From: Clostridia bacterium
GTDB lineage: Bacteria; Bacillota; Clostridia; UBA1212; UBA1255
Length of the DNA: 32,685 nt
Direction of reading: 5' to 3'
Assembly: GCA_017613535.1 (NCBI GenBank)
Contig: JAGADO010000112.1
Coordinates: 1-32,685 of the forward strand
A program made the position numbers and the translations under genes. The notes under the pieces were generated by a model that did no database searches, was not told the origin of the DNA, and was given only the letters and a program-made list of their open reading frames with translations. The stretch's first letter is position 1. The number at the start of each line of letters is the position of its first letter. This document shows positions 8,932 to 19,341 of the stretch, piece by piece.

Positions 8932-10566
8932 TTACTTTTCGGTTTTAGACCTTTTCTGCTGTACACTAAGAATAACAAGATAAACAGACAGCGAAACGGT
9001 TATAAGTCCCGCGGTCAATCCGACGAAAAGGAGCAGGTATCCGAGCCAGGAATCAAGCGCGCCGCCCCCGTCATTATTGGCCTTGTTTCCGCGGTCGTCA
9101 ATGTTCCCGCCGGGTGTTGCCGCCGGATCCGGAGCGGCCGTCTGAGACGTAACCGGAGGCTTCGTGCGCGGAGGCGTGGCAGTCGGAGCAGCAGTGATCA
9201 CTACAGGCTCTGCGGTAACTTCCGAATCGTTCCACTGAGAGTTGAGCCATTCGACCCTTTTAACGATGAAGTTTTTAAGAAGATCCACCGACTCGTCGTA
9301 CGAATCCGAAGGCACGAACACTCCGCTGTTTTCCCATACAGATTCATTCAGATCGTACGCACTTCTCATATACTCCCTTTGAGTTTCAAGAAATGCGATA
9401 ATATATTCGAACGTGCCGGAATAATACAGTTCTTTCCAGCGCGCTCTGACCATATTGTTAAACGTCGTACTCTTCAGCACGTATACCATCCAGTTTGGCC
9501 TGCCCCAGTAATCTTCCAGAAACATAAACCCGGTCGGGTCAACGTTTTTCCCGTCATTTCTGTCGATCCCGCCCATAGCCAGGTCGTAGTCCCACACCGG
9601 TCCCATATGGAGTTTTCCATCGTAGTCGTTGTACAGGTAAATGCTAGAATTGAACAGCGTGTCGTCGTTCTTCATGATCTCGTTGAAAATATACCATTCA
9701 ACGAGCGAATCCATATCCATATATTGCGAAAAATCAGCAAAACCGCTATAACTGCTTATGCTGCTCTCAAACTTATCAATCTTCTCCTTAGCATTTGCCA
9801 GCGCCCGGTTGAAAGACACTTTTTTATCCGGCTCGTTTCTGAGATCCTCCTTCGTGGGATCCTTCGGGACAAATGTATTTCCGAGTTCCGACCGGAAATT
9901 ATCCGGCTCTCCGCCGCCGTAGTTATTGTCAAGCTCGAGGATCATATCTCCGTTCAGCCGGTCAATGTTCAGCCGTTCTTTTCCGATCTCGACCTTTTCA
10001 GTTATCAGATACACTCCGTTGTACCTGCCGTCAATAAATACATGCGCAGGCCTGCACTCCGGTGTAAAAGCAAAATTGAACTGTCCGGCGAGCGTGAGAG
10101 CGATCATGTTCCTCATCAGCGTCTGATCGGTGATGTTTGCGAGCAGCACCCAATCGCGCGACGCACCGAGCCCGAACCAGTCCGTCTTACTATCGCATTT
10201 AATTGCGTAAGGCCTCTTAGGCTGCCACCATGTGTAATTCCCGCGACCTTTTATCTGAGCGGATTCGTCCGTAAGTATCTTACCGTCCCAGCGGAGCGTA
10301 TAAGTTATATGCTTCCATTCGGAGCGGTGGATATCGTCTTCCGGGTAACCGTCGAGATCGATCTCGAGAACCGCAAAACCGTCCTTCGAAAGCGCCTCGG
10401 GGTCCTGCTTTTTTTTGCGGCTGCTCGCATATACATCAGGCCCGGATACGGACGATATAATAAAAAAGCAAAGCAAAAGCAATAACGCCGGCAGGACCCT
10501 TGCCCGCCTGCCGGCGCAGATGCGATTCACATATTGATTATCAGAATGAGCGCGATCCATCAGCAT
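8932..10566 (-). CDS. Membrane-anchored CotH-family kinase
   Basis: This 544-residue protein has the CotH kinase fold, known in Bacillus from the spore-coat protein kinase CotH. An N-terminal signal or anchor segment lies at about 23-47. The kinase domain (about 62-430) shows KGRGNYTWWQPKRPYAIK (106-123), the WVLLANITD strand (139-147), GRYNGVYLITEKV (180-192) and GPVWDYDLAMGG (322-333), whose D326 and D328 are candidate metal-binding residues. A Thr/Pro-rich stalk (about 455-500) is followed by a C-terminal membrane helix (about 507-532) and a Lys/Arg tail. The predicted topology puts the kinase outside the membrane or in a forespore-facing space. It lies 15 nt after the aquaporin gene. The start has only a weak AGGG site; an ATG two codons later is equally possible. 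Confidence 0.88.
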   Translation of the reverse strand: MLMDRAHSDNQYVNRICAGRRARVLPALLLLLCFFIISSVSGPDVYASSRKKKQDPEALSKDGFAVLEIDLDGYPEDDIHRSEWKHITYTLRWDGKILTDESAQIKGRGNYTWWQPKRPYAIKCDSKTDWFGLGASRDWVLLANITDQTLMRNMIALTLAGQFNFAFTPECRPAHVFIDGRYNGVYLITEKVEIGKERLNIDRLNGDMILELDNNYGGGEPDNFRSELGNTFVPKDPTKEDLRNEPDKKVSFNRALANAKEKIDKFESSISSYSGFADFSQYMDMDSLVEWYIFNEIMKNDDTLFNSSIYLYNDYDGKLHMGPVWDYDLAMGGIDRNDGKNVDPTGFMFLEDYWGRPNWMVYVLKSTTFNNMVRARWKELYYSGTFEYIIAFLETQREYMRSAYDLNESVWENSGVFVPSDSYDESVDLLKNFIVKRVEWLNSQWNDSEVTAEPVVITAAPTATPPRTKPPVTSQTAAPDPAATPGGNIDDRGNKANNDGGGALDSWLGYLLLFVGLTAGLITVSLSVYLVILSVQQKRSKTEK

Positions 10567-10581: not shown

Positions 10582-11289
10582 TCATTTATCGGATCCCGCA
10601 GTCTTATCTGCCTTGCCCTTTAATAGTTTATATGCAAGTGCAGCGAGTGCTCCTCCGGCAAGCGGTGCCACAAGGAATACCCAGACCTGTGAAAGCGCTG
10701 TTCCTCCGGCGAAGATAGCAGGGCCGAGAGAACGGGCCGGGTTTACGGAAGTGCCGGTAAACGGAAGGCCTACAATGTGTATCAGAACAAGTGACAGACC
10801 GATGATCAGTCCGGCAATGGACGAACGCTCGGGTTTATCCGTCACGAACAATATAAGCAGTACGAACGCAAACGTAAGTATGCACTCAATAAGGAGTGCC
10901 TGGAGAAGGCTGGAATTAAGCGCGCTCGCAGCGCCGTAACCGTTAGTTCCGAGACCGGTCTCTTTACCGAAGAAAACGAGCAGCAGAGCTCCGCCCGCGA
11001 TACCGCCGGCAAACTGCGCAAGTATATAAGCGAAGAATTCTGCGACTTTCATTCTGCCTGCGATCAGCATTCCGAGCGAAACAGCAGGATTAACGTGAGT
11101 GCCTGAAACATCTCCGAAAGCGTATGCCAGCAGCATCAGCCCAAGTCCGAACGCCATCGCTATAAAGACAAACTTTCCGCCGTCGGTAAAAGCCGAAACA
11201 GAACTGATAGCCACAGCCGATCCGCATCCGAACAGCACGAGGAGCAGCGTTCCTATAAACTCAGCGATAAGTTTTTTGAAAAGTGTCAT
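10582..11289 (-). CDS. Aquaporin-type MIP channel
   Basis: This 235-residue MIP-family channel has six hydrophobic helices. It carries both NPA half-helix motifs, GTHVNPAVSLG (about 63-73) and GTSVNPARSLGPAIF (about 179-193). The residue after the second NPAR is Ser and not the Asp typical of glycerol facilitators, so a water-selective AqpZ-like pore is more likely than GlpF. I chose the ATG at 11287-11289 because GGAGG lies 8 nt upstream; the longer frame to 11310 would start within the barstar stop region. It lies 20 nt after the barstar gene and 15 nt before the CotH gene, all on one strand with no terminator visible, so the genes are probably co-transcribed. Why a water channel sits with these genes is not clear. 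Confidence 0.92.
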   Translation of the reverse strand: MTLFKKLIAEFIGTLLLVLFGCGSAVAISSVSAFTDGGKFVFIAMAFGLGLMLLAYAFGDVSGTHVNPAVSLGMLIAGRMKVAEFFAYILAQFAGGIAGGALLLVFFGKETGLGTNGYGAASALNSSLLQALLIECILTFAFVLLILFVTDKPERSSIAGLIIGLSLVLIHIVGLPFTGTSVNPARSLGPAIFAGGTALSQVWVFLVAPLAGGALAALAYKLLKGKADKTAGSDK

Positions 11290-11309: not shown

Positions 11310-11594
11310 TTAATTATTATGCTTATATGCAAAAATAAGATTTCTGTTTTCCATCATTATATCGTTAAGGACCTTTTCGATCCCTCCCGCGCATGTTTTC
11401 TGCCTTGCGGAAAAGCCGCGCCAGTACAGGAACGTTACTCTGGTCGGTATGTTCCACGTGCTGAGGACATCGTGAAGGGCGTCAAGATTAAACCCGGCCT
11501 CCCCTTCAAACCCGATTGCCTTGTAGATCATTCCGATAGCCTTCTTCTTATCTCTGGCTCTCCTTAAATCGATCTTAACTTCTTTAAGCGGCAT
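11310..11594 (-). CDS. Barstar-family ribonuclease inhibitor
   Basis: This 94-residue cytosolic protein matches barstar (about 90 residues) in length and core motif. GFNLDALHDVLSTW at about 34-47 corresponds to barstar YGENLDALWDCLTGW. D38 and D42 match barstar Asp35 and Asp39, which insert into the barnase active site; barstar Trp38 is replaced by His41. A Glu at about 73 in GGIEKVL may correspond to barstar Glu76. It would bind and block the barnase-type ribonuclease encoded just upstream, protecting the producing cell. I chose the ATG at 11592-11594, preceded by GGTGG; the longer frame to 11645 runs back over the ribonuclease stop codon. An extended -10 promoter element lies between the two genes. 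Confidence 0.9.
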   Translation of the reverse strand: MPLKEVKIDLRRARDKKKAIGMIYKAIGFEGEAGFNLDALHDVLSTWNIPTRVTFLYWRGFSARQKTCAGGIEKVLNDIMMENRNLIFAYKHNN

Positions 11595-11641: not shown

Positions 11642-12268
11642 TCACGGTTTGCCGTACAGAAGTTCAAAACTTTCATAATGGTCTTCCGTATAATAGATCA
11701 GGCCGTCGTTGGAGAAAACGATACGCTTAACTCCCCTCGCCTTGCCATTCGTATCAATGTCGCACTCATAATAAGTGCGTCCGCTCTTTTTAGGCAGAAG
11801 ACCTTCATAGTTTCCGAAACGGTCGCCGCCGATCACTTTTCCGTTTTTAAGAGGGTCGCTTCCGTTACCGGACCATCCGTCCTTCTCGGCCTGCTCCTTC
11901 GTAACGAAGTTGGAAGGCAGCTTTCCGTATGTATGTATATAAAGGGCAACATCTTCTTTCGAATAGTATGTGCCGTTCTGATCGATTTTATTATCCGTCG
12001 GTTTCGGAGTCACCGTCGGCTTCGAAGTCGTCCCCGGTTTTTCAGTCGCATTCGCGCCCGAAGTTCCGGTCACGTTCACGGTCGGAGACTCTTCAATAAC
12101 GGTCAATCCGCCGTCCGTTTTCTCCGAAACAGACGCAGGATCATTCGTGCCGTTCTGATTACCGATAAATTTTGTGGCAATAAAGTAAATGGCAATAACA
12201 GCAATGATCGCTATTACCGCATACAGTATCTGTTTTTTATTCAGACTTTTTTTAGAAGATCCGCCCAT
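11642..12268 (-). CDS. Membrane-tethered barnase-type ribonuclease
   Basis: This 208-residue protein has three parts: a basic N-terminus with an uncleaved-looking transmembrane helix (about 13-33), a Thr/Pro/Asn-rich linker (about 38-98), and a barnase-type ribonuclease domain (about 100-206). The domain aligns with barnase along its length: YIHTYGKLPSNFVTKEQA, GKVIGGDRFGNYEG, KKSGRTYYECDID and SNDGLIYYTEDHYESF. Catalytic and phosphate-binding residues are kept: K124 (barnase K27), E168 (E73), R178 (R83), R182 (R87) and H197 (H102); guanine-site E155 (E60) is also kept. Barnase Arg59 is replaced by Tyr154. Positive-inside topology places the enzyme outside the membrane. The start has only a weak GGGCGG site. 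A terminator separates it from the gene upstream. Confidence 0.9.
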   Translation of the reverse strand: MGGSSKKSLNKKQILYAVIAIIAVIAIYFIATKFIGNQNGTNDPASVSEKTDGGLTVIEESPTVNVTGTSGANATEKPGTTSKPTVTPKPTDNKIDQNGTYYSKEDVALYIHTYGKLPSNFVTKEQAEKDGWSGNGSDPLKNGKVIGGDRFGNYEGLLPKKSGRTYYECDIDTNGKARGVKRIVFSNDGLIYYTEDHYESFELLYGKP

Positions 12269-12290: not shown

Positions 12291-12328
12291 TTAAAAAGAG
12301 AGCACCTGCGGCTTTTAACAGCCGCAGG
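12291..12328 (-). terminator. Intrinsic terminator after the stalked surface protein gene
   Basis: CCTGCGGCT (12305-12313) pairs perfectly with AGCCGCAGG (12320-12328) around a 6-nt loop. In minus-strand transcripts the stem is followed by a short U-rich stretch (TGCTCTCTTTTT). It should end the surface-protein transcript before the ribonuclease gene. Confidence 0.7.
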
Positions 12329-12354: not shown

Positions 12355-13914
12355 TTATTTCTTCTTTTTCTTACCGACGATGATTCCGACAACTGCGGCG
12401 CACACGACAACGGCTGCGACAATGATGACCGGAACGATCCATTTGTTCCCGCCGGATTTATTCTGGTTTTCGGAAGGATCCGTTTTTACAGGTTCGTCTG
12501 TCTTCGCGGGCTCGTCAGTCTTAGCCGGAGCATCCGTAGCGGCAGGCTTATCTGTGGGAGCATCGGTAACGACGACTTCGGTAGGAACTTCTGTCGGAGC
12601 CTTTGTAGGCGTCGGATCCGGCTTGGGAAGAGCATCAAGGCCCTTCTCGGCGACCTGAGCCGCAAACGCATCGGCAGCTTCCTTATTTGCAAAGAACGCT
12701 ACATAGTAAAGCTCGACAGTCGTATCTTCCTTACAGGTCGTAAACATATCATAGCGGCAGTTAGCCACTTCGCCTTCCCAGTTCTTTGCCTTGGTGAAGT
12801 CGATATTTACGCACTGAAGATCATCAGTAGCGGCATAGTTGTAAAGAATATTCTGAGCTTCGCTGTATCCGCCGTGATCAGACGTCTGGTAATACATCGA
12901 TCCGCCCTTAGCGCCTTCATTCGTATTTACCCTGACACCGATCTGGATGATCTTATTCTCGTCAGCAGATATCGGATCCAGTTCTTCGAGAGCGATCAGG
13001 TTTCCGAATGCGAATTCGATGAACGGATCTCCTCCTGCGTTAACATCGATGCACCAGCATTTTTTATCGCTGTCAAAGTAGACATCTCCGATCATATTTC
13101 TGGTAGTGGTCGGGAAGAAATCTTCAAAGATAAGATCATCGGTGTCGAAAACGATCAGGCCGTGAGGCGTGGTATCGACAGTCGAAGGATCAGCGGTCGG
13201 CTCGGGAGTCTTCTCGACGGAGCGATCCGGTCCCGCATAGTTATTAGCATCTTCTTCAGTCTCGAAGAATGCCACCCATGCGATATAAATAGTGTCGCCC
13301 TCTTCGCAAAGTCCGCTTCTTCCACCCCTGTACATACCGTCGAACCTGAACGAATTAACGGTACCTTCCCAGAACGTCTCCCCCTCTTCCATTTCGGGAA
13401 CCAGGTTCGCCGTAGCGCCTTCTTCGGCAGAAACTCCTTCGGGACCGTTGATCAGGTTAACATATTTCTGGTTCTGCTCGGGCATATTAAATACGAACTT
13501 CTTGAATTCGGTCATATTGGGTTCGATGTCGAAATGGAATACGGTGCTTCCGCTCACGCCGTGAATCGACGTTCCGAAGTGTCCTTCATACTCGGTCGCA
13601 TCGGTCGTATTTTTAAGGCAGAACGCAACGTAAGGATAATCGTCGCCGTCCATATCTCCGTCGGCAATGCAGTTCATATAGAAATACGGGTCGCCGAGGT
13701 CGTCAAGGTTCTCCGCGGTCATTTTTAGTGCATGATCTTCCCACTCGACAGAACAGCAGTAAATACCGGTTGCGGTATATATGTCGTCAAAATCGCTCTC
13801 GTAGTAGAAATCGTATACGTATCCGGGTTCCGCAGCAGATACATAAAATGTCGGGAACAGGGACATCACGAGAGCAAGCACAAGTATGACAGACAGACAT
13901 TTCAGCTTCTTCAT
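12355..13914 (-). CDS. Stalked surface protein with two tandem ectodomain repeats
   Basis: This 519-residue protein has a signal peptide (1-28, ending VSAAEP), two related beta-rich domains (about 32-228 and 252-420), a Thr/Pro/Glu/Asp stalk with TEVPTE and TDEPAKTDEP repeats (about 432-485), a C-terminal membrane helix (about 490-513) and a GKKKKK tail. The duplication is visible at the domain ends: FWEGTVNSFRFD...IAWVAFFETEEDANNY (181-226) against NWEGEVANCRYD...LYYVAFFANKEAADAF (378-417). I do not recognise the domain; a carbohydrate-binding or adhesion role is only a guess from its beta content and location. The ATG follows AAAGGAGCG. It has its own promoter, a structured leader of about 110 nt and a terminator, so it is probably monocistronic. 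Confidence 0.82.
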   Translation of the reverse strand: MKKLKCLSVILVLALVMSLFPTFYVSAAEPGYVYDFYYESDFDDIYTATGIYCCSVEWEDHALKMTAENLDDLGDPYFYMNCIADGDMDGDDYPYVAFCLKNTTDATEYEGHFGTSIHGVSGSTVFHFDIEPNMTEFKKFVFNMPEQNQKYVNLINGPEGVSAEEGATANLVPEMEEGETFWEGTVNSFRFDGMYRGGRSGLCEEGDTIYIAWVAFFETEEDANNYAGPDRSVEKTPEPTADPSTVDTTPHGLIVFDTDDLIFEDFFPTTTRNMIGDVYFDSDKKCWCIDVNAGGDPFIEFAFGNLIALEELDPISADENKIIQIGVRVNTNEGAKGGSMYYQTSDHGGYSEAQNILYNYAATDDLQCVNIDFTKAKNWEGEVANCRYDMFTTCKEDTTVELYYVAFFANKEAADAFAAQVAEKGLDALPKPDPTPTKAPTEVPTEVVVTDAPTDKPAATDAPAKTDEPAKTDEPVKTDPSENQNKSGGNKWIVPVIIVAAVVVCAAVVGIIVGKKKKK

Positions 13915-14033: not shown

Positions 14034-14062
14034 ATTCTACAAGAAAGGACCGTACTTGTCAA
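14034..14062 (-). promoter_or_regulatory. SigA-type promoter for the stalked surface protein
   Basis: On the minus strand TTGACA (14057-14062), a 17-bp spacer and TAGAAT (14034-14039) are present. Transcription should start near 14027. The -35 is 5 bp from the divergent -35 box, and together they form an inverted repeat. Confidence 0.8.
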
Positions 14063-14067
14063 GCACG

Positions 14068-14096
14068 TTGACAACGCCGCGGGTATATTGTAAAAT
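14068..14096 (+). promoter_or_regulatory. SigA-type promoter for the phosphodiester glycosidase-family gene
   Basis: TTGACA (14068-14073), a 17-bp spacer and TAAAAT (14091-14096) lie about 50 bp before the ATG. The promoter is back-to-back with the promoter of the minus-strand surface protein. Confidence 0.8.
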
Positions 14097-14145
14097 CTGC
14101 GCAGAAACTGGTTGTAGCCGCTTTTCGGAAAGGAGCAATCTTATA

Positions 14146-15729
14146 ATGAAAAAAATCAGGTCATTCAGACTGCCTGCCATTGCCCTCGCCCTGGTTATGC
14201 TTTTCTGCCTCGTTCAGAAACCCGTGACCGTGCGCGGAATGGAAGGACTTAAGGACAAAGATTGGGTCACGGAGTATTCGGAGCACGAGATCTATCCCGG
14301 CGTTATGGCTTACGATTTCGTTTCGACAGAATCGTCGAAGTATAAACTTAATCATATCCACATTGTCGAATTCGATCCGGCACAGAGCGACCTCTACGTC
14401 GAAGTTACGAACGAGTCGCAATATTCCAACACTCTCAAGACCGTCCAAAAGACGATGGAAGAGTTCAACGCGAATAACCCGGGAAAAACCGCTCTCGCAG
14501 GCGTAAACGGAGATATGTGGATGGTTTCGTACGCACATGCACGCATACTCGGACGCGAAGATCTGCTGTCAGGCAGTTATAAATCATACGCGGGCGATCC
14601 TGTCGTAACACAGTCTCTCACGATCCCCAGAGGATTCAACGTATATAAGGGCGAGATCATCAGCTCACCTCACGACAGCACGGAAACTCCGTACGAGGGT
14701 GAATTCCAGGCGTTCGGCGTAAGCGCGGACGGCGTTGCCCAGCTCGGACAGCCGAAAGTTACGGTCAATGTCACGAACAATACCACCGGTAAGACCGAGA
14801 AGATGAACGGTATCAACCGCCTTCCATCCAACAAGGCCGTGATGATGTACACGGACAAAGGCCCGGTTTCGAACTATTCTCTCGAGGATGCTTTCGAGAT
14901 CATTATCGATTTCGATGAGGACTATGTGATCAGGCACGGCACAAACATCACCGGTACGGTCGTGGGAATCTGCGGCCCGGGCGACGAGAACATGCCCATG
15001 AAGGAAAACCGCATCATAATTACCGCCCGCGGCGAAAAGAAGATCGCAAAGTTCTCGGATTACAGCGTAGGCGATAAGATCACGATCGAAGTAACCGTTA
15101 AAGACACGTTTAAGAACGACGAGTTCTGGCAGAACGTTTACACGGCTGTCGGAGGACATATGGTATTTGCCCGTGACGGAAAAGCATCCGGCCTCTCCGG
15201 AGAAGGCGGCTACCCCACCACGATAATTGCCACAAACAAAGCCGGAAAGATGCTGTTCATCCAGGCTGACGGAAGACAGACCGGATTCAGCGTCGGTATC
15301 CCGTTTACTGTATACGGAGACCTCGCAAAAGAACTTGACCTGGAAGACGCGTTCATCGTTGACGGCGGCGGAAGTTCGACCATGGTGCAGCTCGCTGCCG
15401 AAGGTTATAAGCTCGTTAACAGGCCCAGCGATAAGAAATCGGACGGAACATACGGAAGTCCCAGGACGGTCGTAAATTCAGTAATCGTTGCGTCCGGTCC
15501 CGACCGCAACGCTCCCCCGGCCACCGAAGTGCCTACCGAAGAGCCCGCTGCACCCGCTACGGAAGAAGCAGTACCCGCTACGGATGATCCGGGAAAAGAT
15601 AAAGATGACAGCAAAAAATCCGGTCTCGGAACGGGGGCAATAATCGGTATAATCGCAGGCTGCGTCGCTCTGGCCGCGGTCATAGCCTTCGTGATCATCA
15701 AAGCCGTTTCTTCGAAAAAAAAGAAATGA
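14146..15729 (+). CDS. Stalked phosphodiester-glycosidase-family (NAGPA-like) surface protein
   Basis: This 527-residue exported protein has a signal peptide (about 1-31) and a domain of the phosphodiester glycosidase family, named for the mammalian uncovering enzyme that removes GlcNAc from a phosphodiester and found in bacterial exopolysaccharide proteins. Family features are GVNGDMWMV near 119-127 and the hallmark FIVDGGGSSTMVQL around residue 406, followed by a SPRTVVNSVIV C-terminal strand. A Thr/Pro/Glu stalk (about 460-485), a membrane helix (about 498-520) and a SSKKKK tail follow. The ATG at 14146 has an AAAGGAGC site; the longer frame to 14056 runs across the promoter. It may trim phosphodiester-linked sugars on wall polymers, which is inference. 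No terminator is visible before the tRNA promoter. Confidence 0.88.
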   Translation: MKKIRSFRLPAIALALVMLFCLVQKPVTVRGMEGLKDKDWVTEYSEHEIYPGVMAYDFVSTESSKYKLNHIHIVEFDPAQSDLYVEVTNESQYSNTLKTVQKTMEEFNANNPGKTALAGVNGDMWMVSYAHARILGREDLLSGSYKSYAGDPVVTQSLTIPRGFNVYKGEIISSPHDSTETPYEGEFQAFGVSADGVAQLGQPKVTVNVTNNTTGKTEKMNGINRLPSNKAVMMYTDKGPVSNYSLEDAFEIIIDFDEDYVIRHGTNITGTVVGICGPGDENMPMKENRIIITARGEKKIAKFSDYSVGDKITIEVTVKDTFKNDEFWQNVYTAVGGHMVFARDGKASGLSGEGGYPTTIIATNKAGKMLFIQADGRQTGFSVGIPFTVYGDLAKELDLEDAFIVDGGGSSTMVQLAAEGYKLVNRPSDKKSDGTYGSPRTVVNSVIVASGPDRNAPPATEVPTEEPAAPATEEAVPATDDPGKDKDDSKKSGLGTGAIIGIIAGCVALAAVIAFVIIKAVSSKKKK

Positions 15730-15747: not shown

Positions 15748-15777
15748 TTGACAACTCCCCTTCCGTTAGTGTATACT
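15748..15777 (+). promoter_or_regulatory. Promoter for tRNA-Trp
   Basis: TTGACA (15748-15753) and TATACT (15772-15777) have an 18-bp spacer. Transcription would start about 6 bp before the mature tRNA 5' end, as is common for tRNA genes. Confidence 0.75.
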
Positions 15778-15790
15778 CCACCTCGCGCGA

Positions 15791-15863
15791 AGGGGAGTAG
15801 TTCAATTGGTAGAGCAGCGGTCTCCAAAACCGCCCGTTGCGTGTTCGAGTCGCGTCTCCCCTG
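15791..15863 (+). tRNA. tRNA-Trp (anticodon CCA)
   Basis: The 73-nt cloverleaf was folded by eye. The acceptor stem AGGGGAG (15791-15797) pairs with CTCCCCT (15856-15862), and the discriminator is G15863. The D arm is GTTC/GAGC. The anticodon stem GCGGT/ACCGC encloses loop CTCCAAA with anticodon CCA, and the T arm contains TTCGAGT. The CCA end is not encoded: the acceptor is followed by CTTAAG. Confidence 0.95.
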
Positions 15864-15868
15864 CTTAA

Positions 15869-15903
15869 GCCGTGCGCCTGTGCGCACGGCCTTTTTGTTT
15901 TAC
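15869..15903 (+). terminator. Intrinsic terminator after tRNA-Trp
   Basis: GCCGTGCGC (15869-15877) pairs perfectly with GCGCACGGC (15882-15890) around a CTGT loop and is followed by CTTTTTGTTTT. It begins 5 nt after the tRNA. Confidence 0.9.
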
Positions 15904-15924
15904 AGCACGGGGTGTGATTTACCG

Positions 15925-16299
15925 ATGACAGAATATCGTAACAGAAACGAATCGACGCACGTGCGCCAGGGCAGGCGATGTTCAGCTGCCCGGCGGTTTA
16001 TTACCGTATGTGCTCTCCTGCTTTGCGCATTGACCGTCTTCACCGCTATATCTTACTGTAAAACGGTGTTTGACGTCAGAACCGTTTCGGCTACTAAAGC
16101 AGAAACATCGGGAAAGACCGGCGGCGAAGACGCACAGGCCGCGACTGCCGGACCTGATGCCACTGACGCGAAACAGAGCGGAAGTAATAACTCCGGTAAG
16201 TATTTTGTTAATAAAACGCATATAATCATATCATGTCTCGTGGCTTTCGCGCTTGCGGTACTCATCGCAGTGCTGCAGGCGAAAAAACGGTTCAAATAA
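15925..16299 (+). CDS. Hypothetical small membrane protein, 124 aa
   Basis: I do not recognise a family. The predicted 124-residue protein has a basic N-terminus (RQGRRCSAARR), a first membrane helix (about 28-48), a central Ala/Thr/Gly/Asp-rich loop (about 58-95) and a second membrane helix (about 98-118) with a KKRFK end. The loop composition resembles the stalks of the neighbouring surface proteins. The start ATG at 15925 is only weakly supported by GGGGTG 11 nt upstream; the open frame continues back through the tRNA and is not real there. Only about 22 bp separate it from the tRNA terminator, so its promoter is unclear. It precedes the M18 aminopeptidase gene by 40 bp and may be co-transcribed with it. 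Confidence 0.55.
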   Translation: MTEYRNRNESTHVRQGRRCSAARRFITVCALLLCALTVFTAISYCKTVFDVRTVSATKAETSGKTGGEDAQAATAGPDATDAKQSGSNNSGKYFVNKTHIIISCLVAFALAVLIAVLQAKKRFK

Positions 16300-17664: not shown

Positions 17665-19341
17665 TCAGCCGCGCTTTTTCTTTCTGGCCAGTTTGATCAC
17701 CAGTACGATCGTTACGATAACGGCGACGACAAGCAGTGCGACAAGGATCTCAAGCATCCCGAACGATACTGATGCGTTGCCGTTTACTTCTTTTTCCGTC
17801 AATGTCGCTTCGGGCGTTGAGGCCGCGGTCAATTCCGGCGTTGCGGGCACTTCCGTTGCCTCTTCTGTCGGAGCTTCGGTGGGCTCCAGAGTAGGTTCGG
17901 GCGTAGGCGTTTCTGCCTCAGCCTGGTCGACAGTAATGCTGAAATCTTCAGGCGCACTTACCAGATAACCGTCACAGTAACCCTGCTCGTAACGAACGGA
18001 GCATATGTATTGCCCCGGTTCATTAAACGTAAACTCAAAGCTGCACGTTCCGTCTTCCCCGAACTCGGTCACGATCTCACCGTAATCGACAGAACTGTTC
18101 CCTTTCGCGTATCTCGCCTTAACAGTCCCGCGCGGCACGATGCCGTCTATCTGATCTTTAAGCCGGACGCTAACGCGCATTTTATAAAGATTATCCGCCG
18201 GAGAAAATTCAAGCTTCCCTGCCTCGGCAACGACCGACGTCGAAAGAGCCACAGCCTTAACGTTGGTATTGCCCGCCGAACGCGGAGTAGTTGTCACACC
18301 CTCGAACCTCGTGACCGTGACGCGGAAATCACCCGAACCGATAACGATCAGATTATTGCCCTCTACGCGGGCGATATACGGGTTTGAAGCCAGGTACTCG
18401 TAATTTCCTTCCCCCGACCCTCCGGACGCCGTTAAAGGCACTACATCGCCCAAATTCAGCGTTTTAGGGATCGAACCGAGAGAAACACCGCTCGTCTGGG
18501 CAGTCTGCTCGGGCTGGGCGAGCTTATTACCCGTGATCTTAAGTCCGTACTGCGCCGCGATCGCATCCGCGACAGCCGCGCCGATCTCTTTTATCTTTGT
18601 ATCGTTGTTAAGAATAGCCAGGTCCGTATCGCTCGTGATGAACGCGGTCTCGAGGATAAGCGACGGTATGCCGTATCTGACGCCCATCCTGATAACTTCA
18701 TAGTAGTCACCCGCGCTTCCGTCGGGATAATCGAGGTATTGCGCATCTTCAAGCACGCGCGTCATAAAGCCGTTGTTTTTAAGGCCCAGGTCTGAAAGAC
18801 GTGAAAGTATCTTATCGGTAAGGTTTACTGCAGCGCGCTTCATTTCCGGACGGTAGTTACCGCACGGAATGATGGTCGATGCGCCCCTTGCAGACTTATA
18901 GCTTGATGAATTGATATGGAACGAAAGAAATACGTCTGCTCCGACGTTATTTGCAAAAGCCGCTCTTGCGTAAGTCGAGATGTGATTATTTGCGACGCGC
19001 GTTCTGTAAACGATAACTCCGTCATACTGGATGAGCCGTTCGTAGCAGGCGTTCATGAGCTTATCGTTAAAAGCCCGCTCGGAATATTCGACGCCGTCAA
19101 CAGTACGGGTGGCACCGGGGTCATTTCCGCCGTGTCCCGCGTCAAGCATAACAGTGAATGGCTTGTTTTCGCTCTCTGAAGGCTCGGCCTGCTCCTCACC
19201 CGCGGCTCTCACTGCAATAGCCCCCGAAAAAAGGCTTGCCAGCATGACCGCCGCCATCAGGCATGAGCACACAGCCGTAAAAATGCGACGTTCCTTATTC
19301 GCGCGCCTTGAAGCGCCTACGCGTTTTTTATCTTTAGTCAT
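17665..19341 (-). CDS. Stalked N-acetylmuramoyl-L-alanine amidase (Amidase_3)
   Basis: This 558-residue exported zinc amidase cleaves the bond between N-acetylmuramic acid and L-alanine in peptidoglycan. After a signal segment (about 20-47) the Amidase_3 domain spans about 62-256, with zinc ligands H70 (DAGHGG), E88 (YSERAFN) and H142 (SFHINSS) and catalytic E231 (LILETAFIT). A Big-type beta domain (about 285-360) and a second beta-sandwich-like region (about 365-475) follow. A Pro/Thr/Glu stalk (TPEPTLEPTEAPTEEATEVP), a C-terminal membrane helix (about 528-550) and an ARKKKRG tail complete it. Most amidases of this family are soluble or bind the wall non-covalently, so a membrane stalk is unusual. 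An AGAGG site is 10 nt before the ATG. It is the last gene of the thyA-folA run. Confidence 0.93.
   Translation of the reverse strand: MTKDKKRVGASRRANKERRIFTAVCSCLMAAVMLASLFSGAIAVRAAGEEQAEPSESENKPFTVMLDAGHGGNDPGATRTVDGVEYSERAFNDKLMNACYERLIQYDGVIVYRTRVANNHISTYARAAFANNVGADVFLSFHINSSSYKSARGASTIIPCGNYRPEMKRAAVNLTDKILSRLSDLGLKNNGFMTRVLEDAQYLDYPDGSAGDYYEVIRMGVRYGIPSLILETAFITSDTDLAILNNDTKIKEIGAAVADAIAAQYGLKITGNKLAQPEQTAQTSGVSLGSIPKTLNLGDVVPLTASGGSGEGNYEYLASNPYIARVEGNNLIVIGSGDFRVTVTRFEGVTTTPRSAGNTNVKAVALSTSVVAEAGKLEFSPADNLYKMRVSVRLKDQIDGIVPRGTVKARYAKGNSSVDYGEIVTEFGEDGTCSFEFTFNEPGQYICSVRYEQGYCDGYLVSAPEDFSITVDQAEAETPTPEPTLEPTEAPTEEATEVPATPELTAASTPEATLTEKEVNGNASVSFGMLEILVALLVVAVIVTIVLVIKLARKKKRG

Follow-up and report, generated by a model that had tools for sequence, protein, structure and literature searches.

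Why would a gut bacterium hold a barnase-type ribonuclease at its membrane, when the Bacillus enzymes of this kind are released from the cell? The question is raised by an open reading frame on the reverse strand of a 32,685-nucleotide stretch of DNA (the window) from a gut (rumen-type) Clostridia bacterium, which opens with ATG and encodes 208 amino acids at 11642-12268, exactly the coordinates given in an earlier note on this DNA. The best explanation, to which we assign a probability of roughly 0.55, is that a surface-held barnase-type RNase scavenges extracellular RNA while its producer is shielded by a cytosolic barstar. The locus comprises the following features, with the basis of each assignment in parentheses.

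12305-12328, minus strand: terminator-like hairpin of the upstream gene (sequence).
11642-12268, minus strand: apparently tethered barnase-type ribonuclease, 208 aa (Pfam, PDB-chain matches, AlphaFold model, Foldseek).
12230-12268, minus strand: basic, presumably cytoplasmic N-terminus, residues 1-13, with 5 Lys, positive-inside (sequence).
12173-12229, minus strand: hydrophobic anchor helix, residues 14-32, without a lipobox or an SPase I site after the helix (motif rules, model).
11975-12172, minus strand: T/P/N/S-rich disordered linker, residues 33-98, about 66 residues (sequence, low pLDDT).
11645-11974, minus strand: barnase catalytic domain, residues 99-208 (PDB chains, alignments, Foldseek).
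11310-11594, minus strand: barstar-family inhibitor, 94 aa, with no signal peptide (PF01337, AlphaFold, Foldseek, alignment).
10582-11289, minus strand: MIP/aquaporin-type channel, the gene after the barstar in the probable operon, its start (MTLFKK) judged from relatives (profile match, synteny across 7 genomes).
8932-10566, minus strand: surface protein with a CotH kinase domain, the gene after the channel in the probable operon (profile match, genus synteny).

Domain score, fold and catalytic residues all place the enzyme among the barnase-type RNases (PF00545, N1/T1). Residues 106-203 match PF00545 with E=2e-20 (73.5 bits against a curated cut-off of 24), barnase PDB chains are matched at E of about 1e-23, and in the AlphaFold2 model a helix (residues 11-35) and then a segment of low confidence (from 36 to about 95) precede a confident barnase fold, for which Foldseek returns a TMt of 0.91 and an rmsd of 1.3 Å against barnase itself. 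Barnase residues K27, E73, R83, R87 and H102 correspond to K124, E168, R178, R182 and H197 of the window RNase; none of the five varies in an alignment of 36 sequences, and each is kept in 118-119 of the 119 clade relatives among the matches listed. The complete barnase-type domain and the five catalytic equivalents recognized in the earlier note are thereby confirmed by PF00545, alignment and Foldseek, and the domain is presumably an active nuclease. The window genome encodes a single RNase of this type.

The barstar gene was absent from the earlier account. It starts 47 nt past the RNase stop, directly downstream, and its assignment to the Barstar family (PF01337) rests on the domain match (E=2e-10, 41 bits against a curated cut-off of 23.4), on a fold modeled with a pLDDT of 94 whose top structural matches are all barstar (Foldseek TM 0.82), and on the contact residues D35 and D39 of barstar (DxxxD), which correspond to D38 and D42 and are invariant in 35 sequences. 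No other barstar in the window genome scores above the cut-off. An adjoining cytosolic barstar would make the two proteins an enzyme/inhibitor pair, and judged by its sequence the locus is a two-gene RNase/inhibitor cassette.

This cassette resembles the pairing of Bacillus barnase, binase and balifase with barstar in fold, in structural-alignment identity (about 43 per cent), in catalytic residues and in the possession of a dedicated barstar; balifase likewise shares one operon with its inhibitor (PMC5021464). The contact surfaces differ from those of the Bacillus pair. The genus barstar is divergent, with E-A in place of barstar Y29-Y30, and a Tyr occupies the position of barnase R59, a key contact, as it does in 101 of the 119 relatives among the matches listed. 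The RNase/barstar interface may have been rewired at these positions, and because of them tight inhibition is assumed only. The two systems also differ in export, since the Bacillus enzymes bear a cleaved signal peptide and a propeptide and are released, whereas the helix of the window RNase is apparently left uncut and leads into a long linker.

The N-terminus of the RNase reads MGGSSKKSLNKKQ, and its hydrophobic segment (residues 14-32, 19 residues) is ILYAVIAIIAVIAIYFIAT. Under our own motif rules, by which all cleavage and anchor classes given here were assigned, neither a lipobox nor an SPase I site after the helix was found, and by these rules the protein is predicted to lack a cleavable Sec signal peptide of the Bacillus type. 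The sole -3/-1 match in the N-terminus, VIA|IY, sits inside the hydrophobic core without a polar c-region, whereas neighboring exported proteins in the window, which served as controls, show clear sites (VSA|AE, VYA|SS, VRA|AG) or lipoboxes. Signal peptidase II is encoded in the window genome, so lipoproteins can be made by the host; the RNase itself is not one. Because basic residues precede the helix and few follow it, an N-in/C-out topology is favored. The basic N-terminus, the single hydrophobic helix and the Thr/Pro/Asn linker of about 60 residues described in the earlier note are borne out by the sequence and the AlphaFold model, and its proposal that the helix stays uncleaved agrees with the motif rules and with the contrast to the exported controls.

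The sequence and the AlphaFold model, with a helix free of a cleavage motif and positive-inside charge, suggest an arrangement like that of Nuc2 of S. aureus, in which an N-terminal membrane anchor is joined to an extracellular nuclease domain; experiments on Nuc2 show that type II signal anchoring at the surface is compatible with nuclease function (PMC3994088). Nuc2 is an analogue and not a family member, as it has an unrelated SNase fold, was assayed on DNA and has no dedicated inhibitor reported there. Two weak profile matches of the window RNase, to PrgI (E 0.06) and to a pilin-like family (E 0.005, below cut-off), were confined to the hydrophobic helix and were rejected as matches of composition. 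Elsewhere in the window, the exported proteins at 12355-13914, 14056-15729, 15748-16299, 17665-19341 and 8932-10566 terminate in a linker rich in T, P, A and E that is followed by a C-terminal helix and a Lys/Arg tail, a style of membrane tethering that is common among the surface proteins of this genome.

The absence of a cleavage site, the long helix, the positive-inside charge and the anchors of relatives together leave retention of the RNase at the membrane well supported as a prediction. It might nevertheless be supposed that the helix serves as a signal peptide with a non-canonical cut site, or that the linker is clipped, and that the domain is released as in Bacillus, where barnase and binase are soluble. 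A T/P/N-rich linker is open to proteases, whose action could shed a tethered enzyme, and the VIA|IY match does exist. However, that match is buried in the hydrophobic core and no polar c-region accompanies it, the h-segment is 19 residues long, and most relatives have a lipobox, which retains a protein; a soluble enzyme is on these grounds decidedly unlikely.

The anchors of those relatives bear directly on retention. A single-query scan of genome contigs confirmed at least 516 relatives, and an even draw of 392 class genomes contained the RNase domain in 56. The clade of the window RNase was counted on 119 sequences drawn from the best 80 of these at least 516 relatives and from the class and order draw; among the matches listed, 84 carry a lipobox, 33 a Cys-less helix and two are cut at contig ends, and the class and order draw alone gives 22 with a lipobox and 18 with a helix. 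The Cys-less helices of relatives are about 15-22 residues long, and in about 4 of the 33 (L109, L110, L117, L132) the presence of an SPase I site is debatable. The anchors vary too much, and are too short, to be used in homology searches. Lipobox-barnase and barstar pairs such as L063, L119 and L071 share with the window genus the clade, linker, domain, membrane attachment and, usually, the downstream barstar, and differ in that a lipidated Cys is the anchor in place of a Cys-less transmembrane helix. On the maximum-likelihood domain tree, which was built without ambiguous rows and has only 108 usable columns and many weak forks, anchor type switched about 14 times, with at least three switches forced by well-supported branches; a looser tree gives 19 switches, four of them forced. 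Sister sequences illustrate the exchange, with FFGC (L063) against FFGF (L029) and GCFLTGCS (L119) against GYFLFGAT (L111). As the chemistry of the anchor varies and attachment is kept, selection for retention is the simplest reading, and on this comparison of sequences membrane retention of the clade RNases appears to be selected.

Several architectures lie at the edges of this survey. A helix-tethered barnase with no barstar within 3 kb (L014) occurs in a Treponema-binned contig, reflecting either horizontal transfer or misbinning. L109 and L110 are fusions in which an alpha/beta hydrolase (Abhydrolase_5 in L110, E=3e-42) stands between an N-terminal helix and a barnase domain, with a barstar gene next. 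A second clostridial barnase clade (L133-L151, from the class sample, e.g. L150 and L145) carries an N-terminal CxxC...PPxHxxCRC module, which we take to resemble phage MuF head proteins and for which the one module scanned gave no Pfam match. Members of this clade have no anchor and a barstar downstream, with two tandem barstars in L138, L145, L149 and L150.

The inhibitor follows the enzyme whichever anchor is used: among the matches listed, 73 of the 83 lipobox loci and 29 of the 33 helix loci have a barstar as the next gene downstream. The cassette is also present in relatives that can be cultured, such as Eubacterium ruminantium (L015). Of the 392 class genomes, 56 hold the RNase, and 55 of these also have a barstar, versus 16 of the 336 RNase-less ones (Fisher p about 3e-51). 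RNase genomes without an adjacent barstar often hold one elsewhere, as do G370, G234, G265, G168 and G296, and barstar-less loci were for the most part rejected as counter-examples for this reason; G024 and the second RNase of G022 are without a barstar of their own. Such a near-obligatory barstar would be expected of a cytosolic safety lock on an RNase exported by Sec, the arrangement known from Bacillus.

Within the genus the locus is stable. Since the hairpin ends the upstream gene, the RNase probably opens its own transcription unit, in which RNase, barstar, MIP-family channel and CotH-domain protein follow one another closely spaced on one strand. The cassette occupies the same syntenic place in all seven available genus genomes. 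The anchor-linker-barnase architecture, for which the earlier note suggested a search of related genomes, is complete in five further genomes of the genus; in the seventh, the contig ends within the gene. Within-genus dN/dS is about 0.09 (RNase) and 0.17 (barstar), with synonymous sites partly saturated; the fixed syntenic locus and the low ratio of the RNase therefore point to a conserved, single-copy function. The RNase was not found in the other genera of the family, and elsewhere in the order it appears in one genus only, with and without a barstar. Such a distribution would be expected if the RNase had been gained or kept at the base of the genus and then passed on vertically. Cargo of a mobile element or phage was rejected (no match to phage records and six partial matches to plasmid records only), as was anti-phage defence, for want of a match to any PADLOC family.

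There is reason to consider a contact-range antibacterial toxin, in which the tethered RNase would enter touching neighbors and kill those without a barstar, the producer's barstar serving as immunity protein. An RNase gene followed by its inhibitor has the toxin-then-immunity order, as in polymorphic toxins with Tox-Barnase and Imm-Barstar, including those of MuF type; simple barnase-barstar pairs have been treated as an incipient toxin-immunity form, and there are polymorphic toxins that are anchored at the surface so as to be delivered on contact (PMC3482391). The barstar at 11310-11594 lies where an immunity gene would, and the barstars of the 16 RNase-less genomes could be orphan immunity genes. 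However, upstream of the catalytic domain there is only helix and linker, with no translocation, delivery or pretoxin domain (LXG, WXG, RHS, MuF), and the zinc-knuckle (MuF-like) clostridial barnases form a separate clade. Delivery by a T7SS/LXG route was rejected, as no WXG100 protein was found in the genome (82 per cent complete) and the RNase has no LXG or pretoxin segment. Beyond the barstar no functional neighbor recurs, whether for delivery or secretion (no family is seen in more than 3 of the 81 downstream ORFs), and within the order barstars are confined to RNase-bearing genomes. A single fixed genus locus under purifying selection also speaks against a toxin, as does the reach of the linker: about 65 residues stretch to 22 nm or so at most, on the order of wall thickness, so that the domain would lie in the wall zone or at the wall surface. 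A contact toxin is on these grounds unlikely. The earlier note's inference of tethering outside the cell is thus strengthened by the missing cleavage site and the anchors of relatives, and its suggestion of contact-range attack is weakened by the lack of delivery module or neighbors and by the fixed locus; use of RNA at the surface, its other suggestion, is by analogy the better fit.

The favored scavenging mechanism would run as follows. A type II membrane protein (signal-anchored, N-in/C-out) would carry a barnase-type, presumably guanyl-preferring RNase on the outer side of the membrane; a flexible stretch of about 65 residues would hold the domain there, in the zone of the cell wall. Cytosolic barstar would block the enzyme before export and would also guard against RNase that re-enters. 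Outside, the RNase would cut extracellular RNA near the cell, either to scavenge phosphate and nucleotides or to clear surface RNA, and the tether would keep the breakdown products close to the producer. Scavenging is favored by a fixed locus that evolves under purifying selection, by the finding of neither delivery machinery nor a recurrent partner beside it, and by the response of the Bacillus enzymes to phosphate starvation, which induces balifase with the inhibitor in the same operon (PMC5021464). No scavenging genes were found to recur beside the cassette, and the nutrient role therefore rests on analogy. The window also encodes, at 1123-2580 on the minus strand, a 5'-nucleotidase/metallophosphatase-type protein that is probably cytosolic, as it lacks a signal peptide and begins at its catalytic motif.

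A location at the membrane face and conservation in single copy would suit an envelope gatekeeper that destroys foreign RNA (the cargo of vesicles or RNA of lysed neighbors) or RNA of the cell's own matrix and plays no part in nutrition. No PADLOC defence family is matched, and we consider a gatekeeper very improbable next to scavenging.

Both parts of this arrangement have precedents, the simple barnase-barstar pair (PMC3482391) and the signal-anchored nuclease (Nuc2, PMC3994088). In the open-access literature we found no description of membrane-tethered barnases, by lipobox or helix, or of anchor exchange in Clostridia, which is no proof of novelty. At slightly better than even odds, this clostridial clade consists of barnase-barstar pairs selected for the surface, in which lipid and peptide anchors interchange while tether, active site and barstar are kept, so that the basic state of the enzyme is surface-held and its role, in private scavenging of RNA or as gatekeeper of envelope RNA, is distinct from that of the diffusible Bacillus enzyme. 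Barnase and barstar are classic model proteins, and the benefit of barnase to its producer is not settled. The RNase of this clade is, with few exceptions, apparently held at the membrane by one or other of two interchangeable anchors, which argues that in these gut bacteria its workplace is the producer's own surface, and the role of barnase becomes testable by comparing released and tethered forms in growth on RNA and in contact inhibition.
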